Of a DNA stretch of 64,000 bases, positions 3,489-57,122 are shown piece after piece. The stretch covers positions 1 through 64,000 of the forward strand of contig JAHHHT010000021.1 in NCBI GenBank assembly GCA_019359235.1, in the 5' to 3' direction. How positions within the stretch are numbered: the stretch's first letter is position 1; each line of letters starts with the position of its first letter. The notes under the pieces were generated by a model, which saw nothing but the letters and a program-made list of their open reading frames with translations, was not told where the DNA came from and did not search any database. The position numbers were made by a program, and so were the translations under genes. The DNA is from Oscillatoria princeps RMCB-10 (GTDB taxonomy: Bacteria; Cyanobacteriota; Cyanobacteriia; Cyanobacteriales; Oscillatoriaceae).

Positions 3489-6400
3489 ATGTCTCCAGTT
3501 AGCATCAGGACGAGTCAGTCAGCACCAGGCCAACCCAAGCTGTGGATTCTCCTGGTAGGTGCGAACCACTACCAGGACGAGAGCCTGCCTTCTTTACAGT
3601 ATTCAGCATTGGATTGTCAAGGGTTAGGCGAAGCCTTAGCCGAAGCCAAGCTGGCATTTCCTCAAAAGCAGCTCGTTATTCATCACGATTTTGCGGAACT
3701 GCCCCCAAGGCTAGAGACAGTCCGCAACAGTCTCAATCAAATTGTTTCGGCAGCAAAGCCACAAGATACCGTCCTGCTTTATTTTTCCGGGCACGGGTTG
3801 CTAGACCGAGAAAGTCAGCAGGCTATCTTGTGCCTGCAAGATACTGAGAAGAACGACCCCCTGCATACAGGTCTGAGCTTGCCAGAACTGTTAAATCTGT
3901 TGGGGAATTGTAAAGCCGGCCAGCAATTAATTTGGCTGGATGCCTGTCACAGTGGCAGCATGATGTTGCGGGGACAGCCGGTGGAGAGGCTAGATTCTAG
4001 CCAGAGTAGCAGCTCGATGCTGGCGGGTTCCAGGGGGAAAATAGAAGCCGAACCCAATCCCGGCGCTTCTCTGCTCAACCCGTCCTCTCAATTGGTAGAC
4101 GTTTTGCAGAAACGGGCGGCTCAAAGTCAGGGGTTTTATGCCTTGCTTTCCTGCGACCGCGCCCAGAGATCGTGGGAATTTCCCCAATTGGGGCATGGAG
4201 TGTTTACTTACTACTTAATGCGGGGGCTGCTGGGTGAAGCTGCCGACCAGCAGGGCGTCATTGACGCCGATGGACTTTATAAATATGTCTATCACAAGAC
4301 CCTGCAATACATCGACAAGACGAACCAGCAACTGCGACTGATAAATCAGCAAAAGCGCAGTCGCGGCGAAACTAAGCTGCATCCGGAATATCCCTTACAA
4401 ACTCCCAAACGAATTGTAGAAGGAGTGGGGGAGCTGATTCTGGGATTGAAACCCACCGGCGCAGGCTTAAAACCTTCACGGCTAGCAGTGGTAGTAGAAG
4501 GACTGTCCGGCGGCGAGAATTCCCTGGCCTTAAGTAAACTGTTGCGCCAAGAGGGAAATTTTCAACTGGAGTATTGGCACCGGCACGCAAAAACCCACTC
4601 AGAAGTGCGAGCAGCTATCCAAAATTGCCTGCGCTCGCACGTCGCTGTTGCAGGAGAATCGCAGTCCGAAACCGAATCGCGCCACACGCCAGCAGTTGCA
4701 GACACAGAAATAGCTTTCCTGTACTTGCGAGGGCGGATTGAGCGGACTCTGGAAGGGGAAGTGTGGCTGGTATTATCAGAAGAGGTGCGACTCAGCAGCT
4801 CTTGGTTGAGACAAGAATTGCGCCGGTCAAAAACAGCTCAACAAATCGTCATACTGGATTGTCCTGGAGCCAGTTCGCTCTCCGACTGGCTAGAAAATTT
4901 GCAACTCAAACCCGAAGGGGGACAGTTGTTAATTGCAGCTGCAGCACCCGCCGAACACCCAGAACGATTTGCCCAAGCATTGCTGGAAACGCTGCAAACC
5001 GCTGACCGGCAAGTCGGATTGCCGGTAGCCGGCTGGATTTCCCGATTGCAAATCAATCTGGCGGGGACAGGCATCGCGCTGCACATCTGGCTCTCCGACG
5101 CAAAGGACGTGATTGAAATTATCCCCGGAAAAATCGGGTGGCGAGAGGGCGAAACAGCAGCCGGTGATGTGGGGGTTTGCCCTTACATGGGGTTGCAAGC
5201 TTTTGAGGAAAATGACGCGCAATTTTTCTACGGACGGGAAAGCCTAACCCAGCAGCTCGTCAGCGAACTGAATAGTCGAGCTTTTTTAGCGGTGGTTGGG
5301 GCGTCTGGAAGCGGCAAATCTTCCGTCGTTCATGCGGGATTGATTGCCCAGCTGCAGCAGGGAGTGCAGTTGCCAGGAAGCGATTCCTGGTGGATTGAAA
5401 GCTTTCGTCCGGGTGCCCGTCCCCTTCAGGCTCTATCTTGCCGGTTGGCGGGCGCAGGAACGGAAGAAGAACGCGCCAAAGAGCAGATGCAACTGGAGGG
5501 CATGCTGTACGAGGGCGTGGATGGATTCGTCTGCTGGTTGCGCTCCCGCCCCGAACCAATGGTGGTGCTGGTAGCCGACCAGTTTGAGGAACTTTTTACC
5601 CTAGCCACAGCATCCGACCGGCAGAACTTTTTAGACATTCTTTTGGGAGCCTTGGATTGTGCCGGCGACCGATTTAAATTAGTGCTGGTATTGCGAGCGG
5701 ATTTTATCACCTCCGGCTTGGAAGTGCCGGCACTGGCTGGACTTTTACAGCAGTCTAGCCTATTCGTACCGCCTTACCTGACAGCCGATGACTATCGCCA
5801 AGCCATTGTCAAGCCTGCCGAAAAAGTGGGCTTAAACATAGAGCCGGCACTGGTGGACGTGCTGCTGCAGGAACTCAACGGCTCACCCGGCGACTTACCC
5901 CTGTTACAGTTTGTTTTAGAGCAATTGTGGGAGTGCCGGCAGGGGGGCGAGTTGACCCTAGAGGCGTATCACCAAAAAATCGGCGGGCTGCAAGGAGCCT
6001 TAGAGCGAAAGGCGCAAGCAGTTTATGACAGTTTAGAGCCAGAAGCTCAAGCCTGCGCTCAGTGGATTTTTCTGGCGCTGACACATCTAGGCGAGGGGAA
6101 AGAAGATACCCGCCGGCGAGCCTTAAAATCAGAACTGGCTGTCAGGAAATATCCAGCCGATTTGGTAGAAAGAACGCTGCAAGCCTTAACTGCAGCCAAG
6201 CTCATAGTGATGAGCGCAGAATCGGAGGAGGCAGCGGTTGGCAGCAGTCGAGATGCGGACGCCACCCCGCAAGAGTCTGAAGACCAGATCCTGGAAAAAA
6301 TGAAACAGGAAGTGACCGTAGAGGTGGCTCACGAGATATTGATTCGCCACTGGTCAACCTTGCGGTGGTGGTTGGAGGAAAACCGGGCTCGTTTGAGAGT

Positions 6401-36692: not shown

Positions 36693-37654
36693 AGTCCACT
36701 TCCCCAGCGGTGAGCAACTAAATTAATCTATACTAACCAGCCATCCGTCTTTTCAATAGCGGCACCATTACAATCTGACGCCCAAGACCTGCGCCCGGGC
36801 ACCTCCCCCAATCGGTTACCTCGCACCCATCCTCCACGATATTATAACTTTTGGCAAGTTCGCACACCTGCTGGCTCTCTAAAGCTCGCCGGTAGCCCAC
36901 ACTACATTCTACCGGCCAGCCAATCGAGCGCGGTCTGATTTTTGGCCCATCACCCCTTGCCCGATTGGCAAGGCCGGTGGGTGCGGCTCTCTTTCCCTGC
37001 GAGGCGGACAAGTTCGAGCGAAGTTTAGATTGAGAGTGTGTTGCCGGCGATCCAGAGGCTTTGACCCCCATATCTCACCTGCACGTTCGTTGGGCCGTCA
37101 AGTGCGTTTCCCCAGATGCAGCCCGCTCTCAGAGCTAATCTTAATTTAGACACAATCAGTTTCTAGTATTGATTTCACTTGCTGCATTTATAGAAAAGCC
37201 TGATAAACTGTAGTATTATATAACCTGCAAGTCGCCCCTCCACTGGAGAGGGGTGAGAGTCCCGGTTAGCTGCTGTGCGTTCCGCCCGGAGCGCGTCTCT
37301 ACAAGACCAAAGCTCCGTGTTATTCGGAATCTGCTGTTACCCTAACCCAATAGGGGCTGCTACTGGGGCGACAGTCAAAAATAAGCAGCAAAAGGCGCAA
37401 TCCGTCGAAAACGGGCCCCATGTAGGGGCGGGTTCACCCCGGTAGGGGCGGGGCAAGCCCCGACATATCTCCTGCAAGCATTGGATATCTGTAAACCCGC
37501 CCCTACTTCTGGTGGCCTTTGAGTATTGATAACCCCGCCCCTCATCCGATAGAGGTTGTTGCAGTTTAACCATTAAGGGAAAACCTAAAAAACTGATAAG
37601 TGGAAGAATTTTTCATAAAATAACTAAACATTGTTGCAAGGGTACGAAAAATCA
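36693..37654. other. Divergent intergenic region between ftn2 and pdhA
   Basis: About 960 bp. A minus-strand frame at 36733-37071 (112 aa, with AGGTGAG just before ATG) could be a gene but matches no family I know. A hairpin CCCCTCCACTGGAGAGGGG lies at about 37234-37252, and GTAGGGGCGGG repeats occur at 37422-37505. Confidence 0.5.
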
Positions 37655-38689
37655 ATGGTTCAGGAACGGACTTTACCGCGATTTGACACTCGCACAGCAC
37701 AAATCACTAAAGAAGAAGGATTGCGGCTGTACGAAGATATGGTACTGGGGCGCTTTTTTGAGGACAAGTGCGCCGAGATGTACTACCGGGGCAAAATGTT
37801 CGGGTTTGTTCACCTCTACAATGGCCAGGAGGCCGTCTCCTCCGGCGTCATCAAGGCCATGCGCCCAGATGAGGATTATGTTTCCAGCACCTATCGCGAC
37901 CACGTCCACGCTCTCAGTGCCGGCGTGCCGGCATCCGAGGTGATGGCTGAGCTGTTTGGCAAAGCCACAGGCTGCAGCAAGGGACGAGGTGGCTCCATGC
38001 ACTTGTTCTCCGCTCAGCACCGGCTGCTGGGGGGCTATGCTTTCGTGGCGGAGGGCATCCCCGTATCCACCGGCGTGGCGTTCCAAACGAAGTACCGCCG
38101 CGAAGCTATGGGCGACGCCAGCGCCGATCAGGTGACGGCTTGCTTCTTTGGCGATGGGGCTTGCAATAATGGCCAGTTTTTTGAGTGCTTGAATATGGCT
38201 GCTCTCTGGAAACTGCCGATTTTGTTTGTCGTGGAAAATAATAAGTGGGCGATTGGCATGGCTCACGAGCGGGCTACCTCCGATCCGGAGATTTACAAGA
38301 AAGCCAGCGCGTTTGGGATGGCGGGGGTTGAGGTGGACGGCATGGACGTGCTGGCGGTCTACTCCGTCGCTCGCGAAGCAATCGCCCGGGCTCGTGCCGG
38401 TGAGGGGCCCACTTTGATTGAAGCGCTGACCTACCGCTTCCGGGGTCACTCTCTCGCCGATCCGGATGAATTGCGCTCCAAGGAAGAGAAGGAGTTCTGG
38501 TTCACCCGCGATCCGATTAAGCGCCTTGCGGCTTATCTGACTGAGCAAAATCTGGCCAACTCTGACGAGCTCAAGGCGATCGAGAAGAAGGTTCAGGCAA
38601 CCGTTGATGATGCGGTGAAGTTTGCCGAGTCAAGCCCCGAACCCGATCCGCGCGAACTCTATCGCTATATCTTTGCTGAGGATGAGTGA
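37655..38689 (+). CDS. pdhA: Pyruvate dehydrogenase E1 component, alpha subunit
   Basis: With the beta subunit, decarboxylates pyruvate using thiamine diphosphate in the pyruvate dehydrogenase complex. The ATG at 37655 gives [10 protein letters not shown], the usual cyanobacterial start; an upstream TTG is in frame but unlikely. Residues include [33 protein letters not shown], and the ThDP-binding motif [31 protein letters not shown]. Its 344 residues are normal. The beta subunit gene is not adjacent. Confidence 0.96.
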
Positions 38690-38730
38690 GGGCTTCTTCT
38701 AGCCCGCCCCTACCCCCCACAGGAACTTTC

Positions 38731-38750
38731 GCCCGCCGGCCCGGGCTTTC
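38731..38750 (+). terminator. Terminator after pdhA
   Basis: GCCCG, 6-nt loop, CGGGC, then TTTC: a short GC stem with a T/C-rich tail about 40 nt after the pdhA stop. Confidence 0.6.
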
Positions 38751-38865
38751 TCTCCAACTCTTGCTCTCTCTCGTTTCTCTCGTTCCCAGGCTGTATCGTT
38801 CCCAGCCTCAGGCTGGGAATGCCAATCAGGAGGCTCTCGCCTCCTGTCTGCCTGAGAATAAGAAC

Positions 38866-39291
38866 AGTCTGCCGGCAAAACTTTAAATTTTGTTAAATTT
38901 GACCCGCCGCGGCCAAATTTTTCCTGGGGTGGGGTTGACTTCAGCCGCCTGTGGGGATATAGTATTCATAATGGGATAGTGGCAAAAATAAAATTTTCAC
39001 GTCTATCCCATTATAAAGTAGTATACTCCCAGCTCAAAGTAGAGTCAAGCCCCAGCTGAAAAAAAATGGCGCGGGCCCAGAATTCCGGCCAATTTTTGGC
39101 TTCGCCCGCCGCCCATCTTCAAGCTGGCAGGGATTGAAGTCCACACACCGGATTGGCGCGGGAGTGCCGGTGGGGAAACAGGCTTGAGGGAGATATTGGA
39201 ATTGCCGGCACCGGCAGAAGCTCAAAGCTGTCCACAGGATGACCGGCAGTCCCCGTAATGGAGCGTGCCTGCTGTCGGGGCTACAATTAGA
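38866..39291. repeat. Convergent-promoter repeat, unit A
   Basis: The first of four tandem units of about 430 bp. Its second part (about 39061-39290) is nearly identical to unit B at an offset of 429 bp, while its first part (38866-39060) has diverged. Confidence 0.9.
38935..39048. promoter_or_regulatory. Facing promoter pair, unit A
   Basis: Plus strand: TTGACT at 38935-38940, 17 nt, TATAGT at 38958-38963. Minus strand: TTGACT at 39048-39043, 17 nt, TATACT at 39025-39020. The two point at each other; predicted start points are only about 40 bp apart. Between them lies TAATGGGATAG...CTATCCCATTA. Confidence 0.7.
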
Positions 39292-39720
39292 AAAGTCCGC
39301 CGGCAAAAGTTTAAATTTTGTTAAGTTTGACCCGCCGCGCCCAAATTTTTCACCGGGTGGGGTTGACTGTTGTCGGATCTGGGGATACACTATTTATAAT
39401 GGTAATATTGACAAAAATAAAATTTTCGCTACTATCCCATTATTTAGTAGTATACTCCCAGTTCAAGCGAGAGTCAAGCCCCAGCTCAAAAAAAATGGCG
39501 CAGGCGCAGAATTCCGGCCAATTTTTGGCTTCGCCCGCCGCCCATCTTCAAGCTGGCAGGGATTGAAGTCCACACACCGGATTGGCGCGGGAGTGCCGGT
39601 GGGGAAACAGGCTTGAGGGAGATATTGGAATTGCCGGCACCGGCAGAAGCTCAAAGCTGTCCACAGGATGACCGGCAGTCCCCGTAATGGAGCGTGCCTG
39701 CTGTCGGGGCTACAATTAGA
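39292..39720. repeat. Convergent-promoter repeat, unit B
   Basis: A 429-bp unit. Its first ~100 bp are virtually identical to unit C and its last ~230 bp to unit A. Confidence 0.92.
39363..39477. promoter_or_regulatory. Facing promoter pair, unit B
   Basis: Plus: TTGACT 39363-39368, 17 nt, TACACT 39386-39391. Minus: TTGACT 39477-39472, 17 nt, TATACT 39454-39449. The spacer sequences differ from unit A. Confidence 0.7.
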
Positions 39721-40158
39721 AAAGTCCGCCGGCAAAAGTTTAAATTTTGTTAAGTTTGACCCGCCGCGCCCAAATTTTTCACCGGGTGGGGTTGACTGTT
39801 GTCGGATCTGGGGATACACTATTTATAATGGGAATATTGCCTAAAATAAAATTTTCGCGGCTATCCCATTATTAAGTAGTATACCCCCAGCCCTTGCCAG
39901 AGTCAAGCCCCAGGGAAAAAAAATGCCGCAGGCGCAGAATTATGGCCAATTTTTGAGAACGCCCGCCGGCTGGATTGAAGCGGGCGGCGATTGAAATCGG
40001 CACAGGGATCTGGCGCGCTCGTGCCGGTGGGGAAGCGGGTGTGAGCGAGAGCAGTGGCAGATATTGGAAATGGCCGGCACCGGCAGAAGCTGAAAGTTCT
40101 CCACAGCCGGCAATGCCAGTGATGGGCAGCGTGCCGGCTGTCCCGGCTAGAATCAGAA
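39721..40158. repeat. Convergent-promoter repeat, unit C
   Basis: A 438-bp unit. Its first third matches unit B and its later part matches unit D. Confidence 0.9.
39792..39906. promoter_or_regulatory. Facing promoter pair, unit C
   Basis: Plus: TTGACT 39792-39797, 17 nt, TACACT 39815-39820. Minus: TTGACT 39906-39901, 17 nt, TATACT 39883-39878. Confidence 0.7.
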
Positions 40159-40474
40159 CAGTCTGCCGGCAAAAGTTTAAATTTTGTTAAATTTGACCCG
40201 CCGCGCCCAAATTTTTCCTGGGGTGGGGTTGACTTTTGCAGGCTGTGGGGATAGACTATTTATAATGGGAATATTGCCTAAAATAAAATTTTCGCGGCTA
40301 TCCCATTATTAAGTAGTATACCCCCAGCCCTTGCCAGAGTCAAGCCCCAGGGAAAAAAAATGCCGCAGGCGCAGAATTCCGGCCAATTTCACAGAAGAGC
40401 CCGCCGGCTGTATTGAAGCGGGCGGGGATTGAAATCGGCACAGGGATCTGGCGCGCTCGTGCCGGTGGGGTCTG
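40159..40474. repeat. Convergent-promoter repeat, unit D (truncated)
   Basis: Follows the other units until about GCCGGTGGGG at 40470, then changes into unrelated DNA coding a WD40 fragment. Confidence 0.88.
40229..40343. promoter_or_regulatory. Facing promoter pair, unit D
   Basis: Plus: TTGACT 40229-40234, 17 nt, TAGACT 40252-40257. Minus: TTGACT 40343-40338, 17 nt, TATACT 40320-40315. Confidence 0.7.
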
Positions 40475-40483
40475 AATAGAGGC

Positions 40484-40612
40484 GCAGAAATCAGCAGTCT
40501 CAGCGGTCATTCCAGAACGATTATTTCCGTCGCTTTTAGCTCAGATGGGCGAACTCTAGTAAGTGGAAGTGATGACGCGACTGTCAAGATTTGGCGGCGG
40601 GTGCCTTCCTGA
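40484..40612 (+). pseudogene. Remnant of a WD40-repeat gene (one repeat and stop)
   Basis: In frame from 40484 the DNA reads EISSLSGHSRTIISVAFSSD, then GRTLVSGSDDATVKIWRRVPS and a stop: one complete WD40 repeat and a normal C-terminal end. No start codon or upstream repeats exist; upstream is the promoter-repeat array. It is the 3' end of a lost or displaced WD40 gene and differs from the repeats of the protein at 3489-8786. Confidence 0.8.
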
Positions 40613-40746
40613 CGCCGGCAATCGGTTTTCGCTCTCGAAATTGCAGAATGGCAACAAGCAGAGTTAAGGCGGCAGTCTCCCGTTCGGTTACATAAACTGA
40701 ACACATTAGAAAAGCATTGGGTAGAGCGCGGGGCGCGGAAGGTTAG

Positions 40747-41097
40747 ATGCCGGCGAGTGGGCGCGAGTCCGTGACAGGACACAACAAATCTGGTCTTGTA
40801 TTTGATGAATCCCATCCCCCCAGCTCAATTCCAGACACTCGCCTCTCCCCCACACTTCCGGGCGCGTGCCTTCACGGGGGCAGTTCAATCCCAACCCCAC
40901 ACGACTGCGGAATCAAGCTTTCCTGCCGTTTTTCCAATCCTTGCATCCCAAATCCCAAATGCAAAATTGTTATGAAATGCCGGCGACTGAGCGCGAGTCC
41001 GCGACAGGACACAACAAATCTGGTCTTGTATTTGATGAATCCCATCCCCCCAGCTCAGTTCCAGACACTCGCCTCTCCCCCCCCTCTTCCGGGCGCG
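40747..41097. repeat. Direct repeat of about 120 bp
   Basis: Copies at about 40747-40867 and 40977-41097 share CGAGTCCGTGACAGGACACA, TCTGGTCTTGTATTTGATGA and CCAGACACTCGCCTCTCCCC with few changes. The period is 230 bp. No gene is recognised in either. Confidence 0.85.
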
Positions 41098-41315: not shown

Positions 41316-42205
41316 CTACTCCCCTAACTGGGGGATCAAACTCTCGCGAGTCGTGCGGCGAGTGAACGGATTCCAAGTGTCCAACTCGGCGGTTGGGCGG
41401 CTGCACAGCATCCCCCTCACCGAGGGACTCAATCCCTGAACGCTGGAGAAATCAGCCCCCGCAATACTCTGCAAATTATTCAACTCCGCTCCCGTCAGGT
41501 CAGCGGCACGCAAATCCACATTCTGCAATTCCGCACCATTCAACCGGGCATTTCGCAAATAAGCCCCAGTCAGAAAAGCCTCCCGGAGATTTGCTCCGCT
41601 AAAAGACACTCCCTCTAAATTCGCGCCGGTCAAGTCCGCGCCGCTCAGGTAGGCTCCCAGGAGGTTCGCGCCGGTGAGATCGGCACCCCGGAGTTCAGCG
41701 GTATTCAGGTAAGCCCCAGTCAGCCCGGCACCTGGCCCAACTGCCCCGCACTTCTTGCCGGCAAACCCTTCAGGCCAAATTGTCTCCTTATTATATAGAG
41801 CGACTAGCAGCTTGGCACCGGCTTCCGTTAGCGCCGTTGAGGTTGGCAGAGCGCAAGTCACAGCGCTGCAAGTAGGCGTCTTGCAAGTCCGCACCGGCTT
41901 CCGTTAGCGCCGGTGAGATCCGCACCGCGCAAATCCGCACCCCGGAGGTTAGCCTGACTCAAGTCGGCATTTCTGAGATTGGCTCTGAGCAAGCTGGCTT
42001 TGCTGAGATTGGCTCGCTGCAGCTGTGCGCCACTGAGATTAACTTGGTACAAATCCTTGTGAGTGAGATCGACACCCTGCAAGTCGGCACCGGCAAGGTC
42101 TTGCCCGTGCTTAAGCGCTTTGATAAGCTCGCCGGCTCTTGTGTGAGCGAGGGTGTGTGAACCGGCGCTGGTGCCGGTAGATTGCTGCACTGGAGTGATG
42201 GTCAT
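41316..42205 (-). pseudogene. Pentapeptide-repeat protein gene, broken by two frameshifts
   Basis: The first part (42205 to about 41912) reads AGADLQGVDLTHKDLYQVNLSGAQLQRANLSKASLLRANLRNADLSQANLRGADLRGADLTGAN and then runs out of frame to a stop. A middle part (GADLQDAYLQRCDLRSANLNGAN) is in a second frame. The rest (from about 41836, GAKLLVALYNKETIWPEGF, then more A(D/N)LxX pentapeptides) is in a third. Both shift points lie in an identical 22-bp sequence at 41891-41912 and 41815-41836. Repaired, it would be a ~295-residue right-handed beta-helix protein. The function of the family member is unknown. Confidence 0.82.
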
Positions 42206-43429: not shown

Positions 43430-44164
43430 ATGTACAGGCCGTTCCTGGAATACTTAGAGAAAGAGCTGTTTGAGCGGTTTGATTTGCGCTCTCGCCCGAT
43501 TCCGACCGGCTTGGAACTGAAGGTGAGCGAGCGCGGCAAGCATCCGGCAACGATTCAGAGCTGGTGTTACGAGTGCGCCGAATTGCGCAAAATGCGCTAC
43601 ACCTATATAGATGCAGGTGAAGCGGCGCAAGTTTTTAACAGCGTTATTTACCCGAGTCACCATTACGACCTGCCCTTGCTAGGCATTGATTTGCTGTCGT
43701 TCGGGCAAAAGAAAATATTAATAGTCCTGGACTTTCAGCCGCTGTTTCGCGACGATGCGTATCAAGCAAAGTATATAGAGCCGCTGGGGCAGCTTCACGA
43801 TAAGTATAGCGATTTGGCTCAAAATTTATAAATGAAATTTTATGACGCCAATCAATATTTCTCCAAATACTTGCTGTTTGCCAAAACCGATGCGGAGACG
43901 GTGGCAACGCGGGTATTCTCAGCTTACAAAGACTATTTAAATTTGTACTGGCAAATGCTTGAGCGAGCCCAGCCGCTGACCGACCCGGAAGACATCCAGC
44001 GGATCGTGAAGGCTCAGAAAGACTACGACCAGTACAGTGCGGACAGAGATCCGGCATCTGGGCTGTTCAGCAGTTATTTCGGTCACGAGTGGGCGGAGAG
44101 ATTCCTGTACGAGTTTCTCTTTGAAGATGCAGTGCCTTTAGCAGTTAGCACCGGCAGACGATGA
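43430..44164 (+). pseudogene. pebA: 15,16-dihydrobiliverdin:ferredoxin oxidoreductase, interrupted by an in-frame stop
   Basis: PebA reduces biliverdin to 15,16-dihydrobiliverdin, the first step to phycoerythrobilin. The first part (133 codons, 43430-43828) carries family motifs: IPTGLELKV, IQSWCYECAELRKMRYTYID, YDLPLLGIDLLSFG and LIVLDFQPLFRD. A TAA at 43829-43831 follows directly. The next codon is ATG and the same frame continues 110 codons (MKFYDANQYFSKYLLFAK ... YSADRDPASGLFSSYFGHEWAERFLYEFLF), the usual C-terminal half. Together they are about 244 residues, normal for PebA. It is a nonsense mutation, a sequencing error, or a gene read by reinitiation at TAAATG. The end overlaps pebB by 4 nt. 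Confidence 0.85.
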
Positions 44165-44922
44165 CCCTCTATCAACCGTTCTTGGATTACGCGATCGCGG
44201 AGTTGGGCCAGCGCCTGGATTTGCAGCCGTACCCGATCCCAGCTGGGTTTGAGCGCAAAGCAGCCACAGTGGGCAAGGGGAAGAACCAGGAGGAGGTGGT
44301 AACCGCCAGTTACGCCTTTCAATCGAGCAAACTTAGGCAGATACGGGCGGCTCACGTTCAGGGTGGCCAGTCCTTACAGGTGCTCAACTTCGTGATTTTC
44401 CCGCACCTTAATTATGACTTGCCTTTTTTCGGTGCCGACTTGGTGACGCTGCCGGGGGGGCACCTGATTGCCTTGGACATGCAGCCGCTTTTCCGGGACG
44501 ATCCCGCTTATCAGGAGAAGTACACCCAGCCCATCTGGCCAATTTTTGAGGCGCACCGGCAGCACCTCACCTGGGGAGGGGACTTCCCAGACGAAGCGAA
44601 GCCGTTTTTCTCGCCGGCGTTTCTGTGGACGCGCCCGGCGGAAACGGAAGTTGTCCAGACGCGAGTCTTTGAGGCGTTCAAGGACTACCTGCACGCTTAC
44701 TTGGATTTTGTGGGGCAAGCGCTGCCGGTTGCGGACAGCCAGGGGCTGAAGGACATCGAGCAAGCCCAGCTGCGCTACCTGCGCTACCGCGCCGAGAAAG
44801 ATCCCGCCCGGGGGATGTTTAGGCGCTTCTACGGGGAGGAGTGGACTGAGGAGTACATCCACGGCTTCCTGTTCGACTTGGAGCGAAAACTGGCTGTTGC
44901 CGGCTCAGCGGAGCGGCCTTAG
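44161..44922 (+). CDS. pebB: Phycoerythrobilin:ferredoxin oxidoreductase
   Basis: Reduces 15,16-dihydrobiliverdin to phycoerythrobilin with ferredoxin as electron donor. Family motifs: [28 protein letters not shown] near the start, [51 protein letters not shown] and the C-terminal [34 protein letters not shown]. 253 residues, a normal length. ATGA overlap with pebA means the two are translated together; in such operons the two enzymes hand over the intermediate directly. Confidence 0.93.
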
Positions 44923-57048: not shown

Positions 57049-57122
57049 TCGGAGCGGCGGGATTTGAACCCACGACCCCTACTACCCCAAAGTAGTGCGC
57101 TACCAAGCTGCGCTACGCCCCG
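57049..57122 (-). tRNA. tRNA-Pro (anticodon GGG)
   Basis: On the minus strand the sequence starts CGGGGCGTAGCGCAGCTTGG. The acceptor stem pairs over 7 bp (one G-U). The anticodon stem CTACT/AGTAG encloses the loop TTGGGGT, giving GGG. The T arm has GGTTCAAATCC. The discriminator base is A and CCA is not encoded. Confidence 0.95.

Follow-up and report, generated by a model that had tools for sequence, protein, structure and literature searches.

A tandem array of facing promoter-like sites in Oscillatoria princeps belongs to a widespread hairpin element and is possibly a two-faced small RNA gene

Introduction

Directly downstream of a dehydrogenase E1 gene (37631-38689, PF00676), which we take to be pdhA or pdhA-like, the 64,000-nucleotide stretch of Oscillatoria princeps RMCB-10 DNA analysed here (the window) carries an array of repeated units, in each of which two promoter-like sites face each other across a hairpin. 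What could such an array be for? A sequence-only reading had proposed that the facing pairs reflect selection for convergent transcription and had named short overlapping RNAs, a collision or supercoiling site, and a repressor sponge as possible roles. Here, we describe the array, follow its element through other cyanobacterial genomes, and weigh the explanations.

Results

The array consists of four units with facing promoter-like sites

A repeat search of the window delimited four tandem units (38834-40470) with start-to-start distances of 428, 429, and 437 bp, in agreement with the ~430 bp proposed earlier. Each unit is a long imperfect palindrome, and between the two sites of each facing promoter-like pair lies an inverted repeat of 47-48 bp, ATAATGGGA...TCCCATTAT. 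In the following list, units come from the repeat search and the genome search; promoter-like sites come from the sequence and a promoter scan; hairpin cores, to which no strand is assigned, come from the sequence and, for unit 3, also from folding of that unit.

38834..39261, plus strand: unit 1 (38839-39261 in the genome search)
38935..38963, plus strand: unit 1 promoter-like site, TTGACT-17-TATAGT
38968..39014: unit 1 hairpin core, 47 bp, with ATAATGGGA arms
39020..39048, minus strand: unit 1 promoter-like site, TTGACT-17-TATACT
39262..39690, plus strand: unit 2
39363..39391, plus strand: unit 2 promoter-like site, TTGACT-17-TACACT
39396..39443: unit 2 hairpin core, 48 bp, with one arm mismatch
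39449..39477, minus strand: unit 2 promoter-like site, TTGACT-17-TATACT
39691..40127, plus strand: unit 3
39792..39820, plus strand: unit 3 promoter-like site, TTGACT-17-TACACT
39825..39872: unit 3 hairpin core, 48 bp
39878..39906, minus strand: unit 3 promoter-like site, TTGACT-17-TATACT
40128..40470, plus strand: unit 4, partial
40229..40257, plus strand: unit 4 promoter-like site, TTGACT-17-TAGACT
40262..40309: unit 4 hairpin core, 48 bp
40315..40343, minus strand: unit 4 promoter-like site, TTGACT-17-TATACT

All eight of the pairs of hexamers that had been claimed are present, with TTGACT at 38935, 39363, 39792, and 40229 on the plus strand and at 39048, 39477, 39906, and 40343 on the minus strand, the latter four each followed by TATACT at 17 nt. 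The region 38690-40700 contains 12 promoter-like sites, including these eight, whereas 50 shuffles gave 1.9 on average (sd 1.3); as every unit is itself palindromic, these sites should not be counted as eight separate events. With the predicted start placed 7 nt past each −10, the starts of the facing pairs are by arithmetic 43-44 bp apart, close to the ~40 bp suggested previously. The palindrome of unit 3 (39789-39914) folds at −48.1 kcal/mol (z −5.2), a value equalled by none of 200 shuffles, and a terminator scan detected no terminator inside the array. Two of the earlier statements stand in part. Spacers were said to differ between units, and some do; however, the left spacers are identical in units 2 and 3 and the right spacers in units 3 and 4. 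The array was also said to contain no gene, which is a judgement, as there are mechanically called ORFs (66 to 125 aa) that overlap it.

Hexamers outlast spacers between related arrays

It had been argued that the spacers would be expected to agree too if the palindrome alone were important; related arrays allow a test. The genome search revealed another array with six units in O. princeps (C8:145517-147858), and Oscillatoria sp. PCC 10802 (G002) has one of three units that, by eye, runs into the same gene end as the array in the window. For the 13 units of these three arrays, mean identity between arrays was 1.00 for the −35 and 0.89 for the −10 hexamers and 0.59 for the spacers; that is, hexamers outlast spacers. 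Outer arms were identical at 0.91, inner arms at 0.77, and the loop at 0.96, and the better conservation of the loop than of the arms counts against a simple stem reading. The rest of the unit gave 0.47, a value that is lowered by the shorter stretches from PCC 10802.

The element is widespread in the order

A covariance model built from 21 sequences, with at most 10 candidates scored per genome, matched 153 of the 388 genomes of the order to which this genome belongs (E 0.01 or better). The strict core ATAATGGGA-N29..31-TCCCATTAT was found in 91 of the 388 genomes and its reversed control in none of them. When the phylum as a whole was sampled, the core was present in 14 of 292 genomes, every one in this order; the 209 genomes in the sample that belong to other orders had none. 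At least 118 stretches came from a scan of named genomes. Among the 80 with titles, eight are plainly non-cyanobacterial, and the others include Microcoleus, Nostoc, Microcystis, Trichodesmium, Arthrospira, and Spirulina among the matches listed; the 38 without titles were counted as cyanobacterial, except L153 and L155. Eleven loci were excluded from the family statistics, eight for their non-cyanobacterial titles (L066, L076, L083, L087, L097, L106, L121, and L139), L153 and L155 by eye, and L179 as viral. The last was the one stretch with the strict core among viral contigs; its hexamers are weak, and we judged it a chance match. Alignment A4 holds 53 of 58 thinned cores, five having been dropped by eye as likely chance matches. 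Because copies are partly orthologues, the counts in this work are not independent.

In a Microcoleus-type genus (that of G008), represented by 29 genomes, a 681-bp query around one copy gave between 8 and 27 BLAST matches per genome, of which some hit flanking genes and many are confined to ~190 bp. Plasmid records gave no match to one Microcoleus-type copy and phage records no match to one unit from the window. By comparison of sequences, these data establish the family and its spread; the element is an old, widespread, and putatively non-coding element of the order of this genome.

Genomic setting and copy history

Gene context, based on ORFs from a simple longest-ORF script (7 of 98 copies lie inside such an ORF), was tandem at 27 loci, convergent at 21, and divergent at 7 (P 0.013, convergent versus divergent). 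At the 27 tandem loci, the element was oriented with the neighbouring genes in 14 cases, against them in 10, and equally in 3, and a gene-promoter role was rejected on this orientation; mostly intergenic, seldom between divergent genes, and without clear orientation preference, the element is not simply a gene promoter. Several loci are common to different species, arguing that many copies are not recent. One locus that was followed in 29 genomes has the element in 8, lacks it in 18, and was not assessable in 3. At two loci that were compared, neither a clean empty site nor a target duplication was found. At L216 (G268:C14:6600-9000), four tandem copies lie at 160-bp spacing, as opposed to one copy in seven orthologous records; this documents tandem amplification and indicates that arrays like that in the window can arise by local amplification.

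A comparison of 192 flanking ORFs gave one BLAST cluster of flanking proteins that links 26 loci. Of the members that were scanned, two (L174 and L148) score as DndD, and L107 (Nostoc) is DndD-like, below the cut-off. Elements lie in or beside dnd (DNA phosphorothioation) genes at L174 (3577-3623, between dndD and dndE), L161 (4614-4660), L107 (2436-2482, flanked by a phosphorothioation restriction gene and by the DndD-like gene), L148 (257-304, adjoining dndD), and L067 (7883-7930, adjoining dndE). A link to DNA phosphorothioation was rejected because DndC is present in 318 of the 388 genomes of the order, which makes co-occurrence with the element uninformative; moreover, the 9 kb around dndC in G000 and in G002 contained no covariance-model match at E 1. 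At L090, which alone was scanned for this purpose, a copy (4545-4592) has a HAD-hydrolase gene on one side and a NurA-domain gene on the other, and the BLAST clusters of these flanking proteins span 8 and 9 loci.

Facing promoters are typical of some lineages

Strong hexamers adjoin the hairpin far above chance, being present in 44.6% of 222 half-elements versus 1.5% in shuffles; as further measures of chance, strong hexamers occurred in 0.8% of shuffled halves and at 1 of 348 displaced positions (the promoter shuffles preserved base content only). Two regularities that had been noted in the array do not extend to the family as general rules. Among 174 elements with flanks, both promoters are strong in 76, one in 51, and none in 47, and the 203 strong halves, for which spacers of 16-19 nt only were tried, comprise 127 at 17, 46 at 18, and 30 at 19 nt. 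Of 99 strong halves, 58 have a gap of 3 or 4 bp between the −10 and the arm. Nine locus groups, one of which is the Oscillatoria arrays, have strong promoters; the −35 was kept better than the spacer in all nine and the −10 in eight. These groups were defined by flank similarity, some merge paralogous copies, and one, of four rows, also contains chance matches. Hexamer conservation, established by the three arrays and these locus groups, supports the earlier proposal that the facing promoters here are under selection, and in the lineage of the window the predicted promoters look non-accidental.

Homologous copies without kept hexamers had been named as evidence that would refute this proposal, and the Nostoc group is of that kind (−35 0.69, −10 0.53, spacer 0.72; outer arms 0.98): its hexamers are weak and kept no better than the spacer, while the arms persist. 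The five Arthrospira matches at a single locus (L117) likewise have weak hexamers, and they resemble each other too closely to be informative. Predicted facing promoters are typical of some lineages, and the arms are the wider constant.

Two half-modules placed face to face

The half-module pattern, promoter-gap-ATAATGGGA, occurred in 19 of 20 genomes selected as likely carriers (control, 0 of 20). In G235, 17 of 28 matches were without a second arm within reach. Loci L332-L349 of this genome (including L340 and L349) carry single or repeated lone half-modules, ATAATGGGAATCCGTG..., with no second arm. Some of the lone halves are upstream of protein genes of mixed kind, one preceding the gene of a HAS-barrel protein (L342) and another a class II fumarase gene (L348), and the ten nearby genes that were scanned had no clear theme that would point to a regulon.

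The 121 exact cores measure 47 bp (38 cores), 48 bp (26), or 49 bp (57), and 53 aligned 49-nt cores start with ATAATGGGA or near variants. Pairing was found in 84.7% of cells versus 81.9% in shuffled halves, and covariation was 0.181 versus 0.148; for neither did any of 500 shuffles reach the observed value. The inner arms are drawn from a small vocabulary. Their match stood out from permuted halves in thinned 47-mers (16/2000) and hardly did so in thinned 49-mers (106/2000), and they were better kept than the loop in just 6 of 11 groups, i.e., no better overall. A strict demand for a hairpin is weakly supported by these comparisons. Together, the lone halves of G235 and the weak excess of pairing suggest that the element is made of two half-modules put face to face rather than of one strictly folded RNA. 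In Microcoleus-type copies, T-runs past the element are specific on one side only: they were found in 58 of 67 copies on that side versus 8 in the A-run control, and on the other side in 57 versus 64.

Discussion

Comparison with known elements

At Rfam 15 gathering scores, the window contains one tRNA only (57049-57122) and the array no match; the matches at the 14 related loci were to a tRNA and a 5S rRNA, both lying outside the elements. A relaxed Rfam search of 38700-40600 returned six matches, of which the best (E 0.12) was CRISPR-DR9 at 40394-40435 with 21.3 bits compared with the 45 required. No description of the element was found among the literature matches listed.

NsiR1 is located at hetF; by contrast, the array here adjoins a pdhA-like gene and has two facing promoters per unit. 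In the available text of Ionescu et al., NsiR1 of heterocystous cyanobacteria is likewise a case of cyanobacterial non-coding tandem repeats. As in an NsiR1-like system, the array consists of tandem direct repeats, with promoter-like sequences in each unit. REP and REPIN sequences are intergenic, multi-copy hairpins with a GTAG or CGTC tag (PMC3733652, available text). The element here is also an intergenic, multi-copy hairpin; unlike REP and REPIN, it bears promoter-like sites, and neither tag is present at the hairpin ends in the 53 aligned cores. The promoters of Correia elements point outwards, whereas those here face inward at each other. Also unlike Correia, some copies stay in place across species, and the two loci examined showed no target duplication. 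The shared part is the short dispersed inverted repeat with sigma-70-like promoters, which describes Correia (PMC10969869, available text), other promoter-bearing bacterial MITEs, and the element studied here.

Explanations for the array

We consider that the array, four tandem copies of the element, is most likely a tandemly amplified, two-faced small hairpin-RNA gene, a reading that we put forward tentatively. With more reserve, we suggest that it may stand for an order-wide class in which two selected, mutually hindering promoters transcribe a single hairpin in both directions, giving near-identical short RNAs with the 5' end locked in the stem, at a dose set by tandem amplification. The building block is a half-module, in which a sigma-70-type promoter, TTGACT-17/18-TATAnT, is followed after a few bp (mostly 3-4) by ATAATGGGA, which hardly varies and covers the predicted start. 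Many copies have two such half-modules facing each other across ~15 bp, mostly A/T-rich, with the arms forming the 47-49 bp inverted repeat. Both promoters would fire, and each RNA would start near the foot of the hairpin, so that the short RNAs from the two strands would be almost identical, each with its 5' end base-paired. With starts so close, the two promoters should hinder each other, and tandem copies would raise the dose. In favour of this reading are the related arrays, the spread of the family and of its half-module, the hexamers that are strong far above chance and kept better than the spacers, the mostly intergenic setting, and the tandem copies at L216. Against it count the Nostoc copies that retain arms but not hexamers, the weak support for a strict hairpin, the one-sided specificity of the T-runs, the negative terminator scan of the array, and the lone half-modules of G235.

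The main rival, which we regard as somewhat unlikely, is a MITE-like selfish repeat, in which the promoters would be the cargo of a transposed palindrome and any host function would be absent or incidental. The element is dispersed in multiple copies, as illustrated by the 681-bp query with its 8 to 27 matches per genome in the G008 genus, some to flanking genes and many of ~190 bp; many Microcoleus-type copies have inverted outer ends, A7-TCGCC / GGGCGA-T7; and the locus that carries the element in 8 and lacks it in 18 of the 29 genomes followed is also consistent with a mobile repeat. Correia offers the precedent of a promoter-carrying MITE (PMC10969869, available text), and the excess of convergent over divergent loci would be expected if insertions near gene starts were purged. 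However, the loci common to different species, the lack of both a clean empty site and a target duplication at the two loci examined, and the retention of hexamers while spacers change argue against this explanation.

Part of the same evidence bears on two further alternatives. The near-invariance of the arm sequence, beyond what pairing asks for, would suit an operator at which a protein reads ATAATGGGA over both start sites, with extra copies as sponge or looping sites, although this invariance arises partly by construction because cores were picked with up to 2 mismatches per arm. The persistence of the arms without the hexamers in the Nostoc group and the lone half-modules of G235, several with a gene close downstream, point the same way. 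We nevertheless find an operator improbable, given that arm spacing varies by 1-2 bp among the exact cores, that the ten genes scanned near lone halves form no clear regulon, and that this explanation comes without a candidate protein. Least probable of all, in our estimate very much so, is a transcription-collision or topology site, at which facing promoters would stop through-transcription or mark a gene boundary. The distance of 43-44 bp between the predicted starts of the facing promoters and the preponderance of convergent-gene loci over divergent ones fit such a site; however, many copies (98 of 174) lack at least one of the two strong promoters, which also counts against the hairpin-RNA reading.

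If the hairpin-RNA reading is true, the element would represent a widespread non-coding family that is unnamed in Rfam or in the literature matches listed, and two facing promoters over one hairpin would provide a natural test case for convergent transcription. The conserved loci and the natural losses of promoters make its function testable by comparison.

Other features near the array

The array is followed by a shorter duplication, in which 40747-40851 and 40977-41081 (105 bp, 96% alike) lie 230 bp apart. On the minus strand, pentapeptide-repeat ORFs overlap at 41316-41894 and 41858-42205. Further along, the adjacent ORFs 43430-43831 and 43832-44164, which are in one frame with a stop codon between them, match the first and second part, respectively, of a ferredoxin-dependent bilin reductase, and a full-length match to this enzyme comes next, at 44161-44922.
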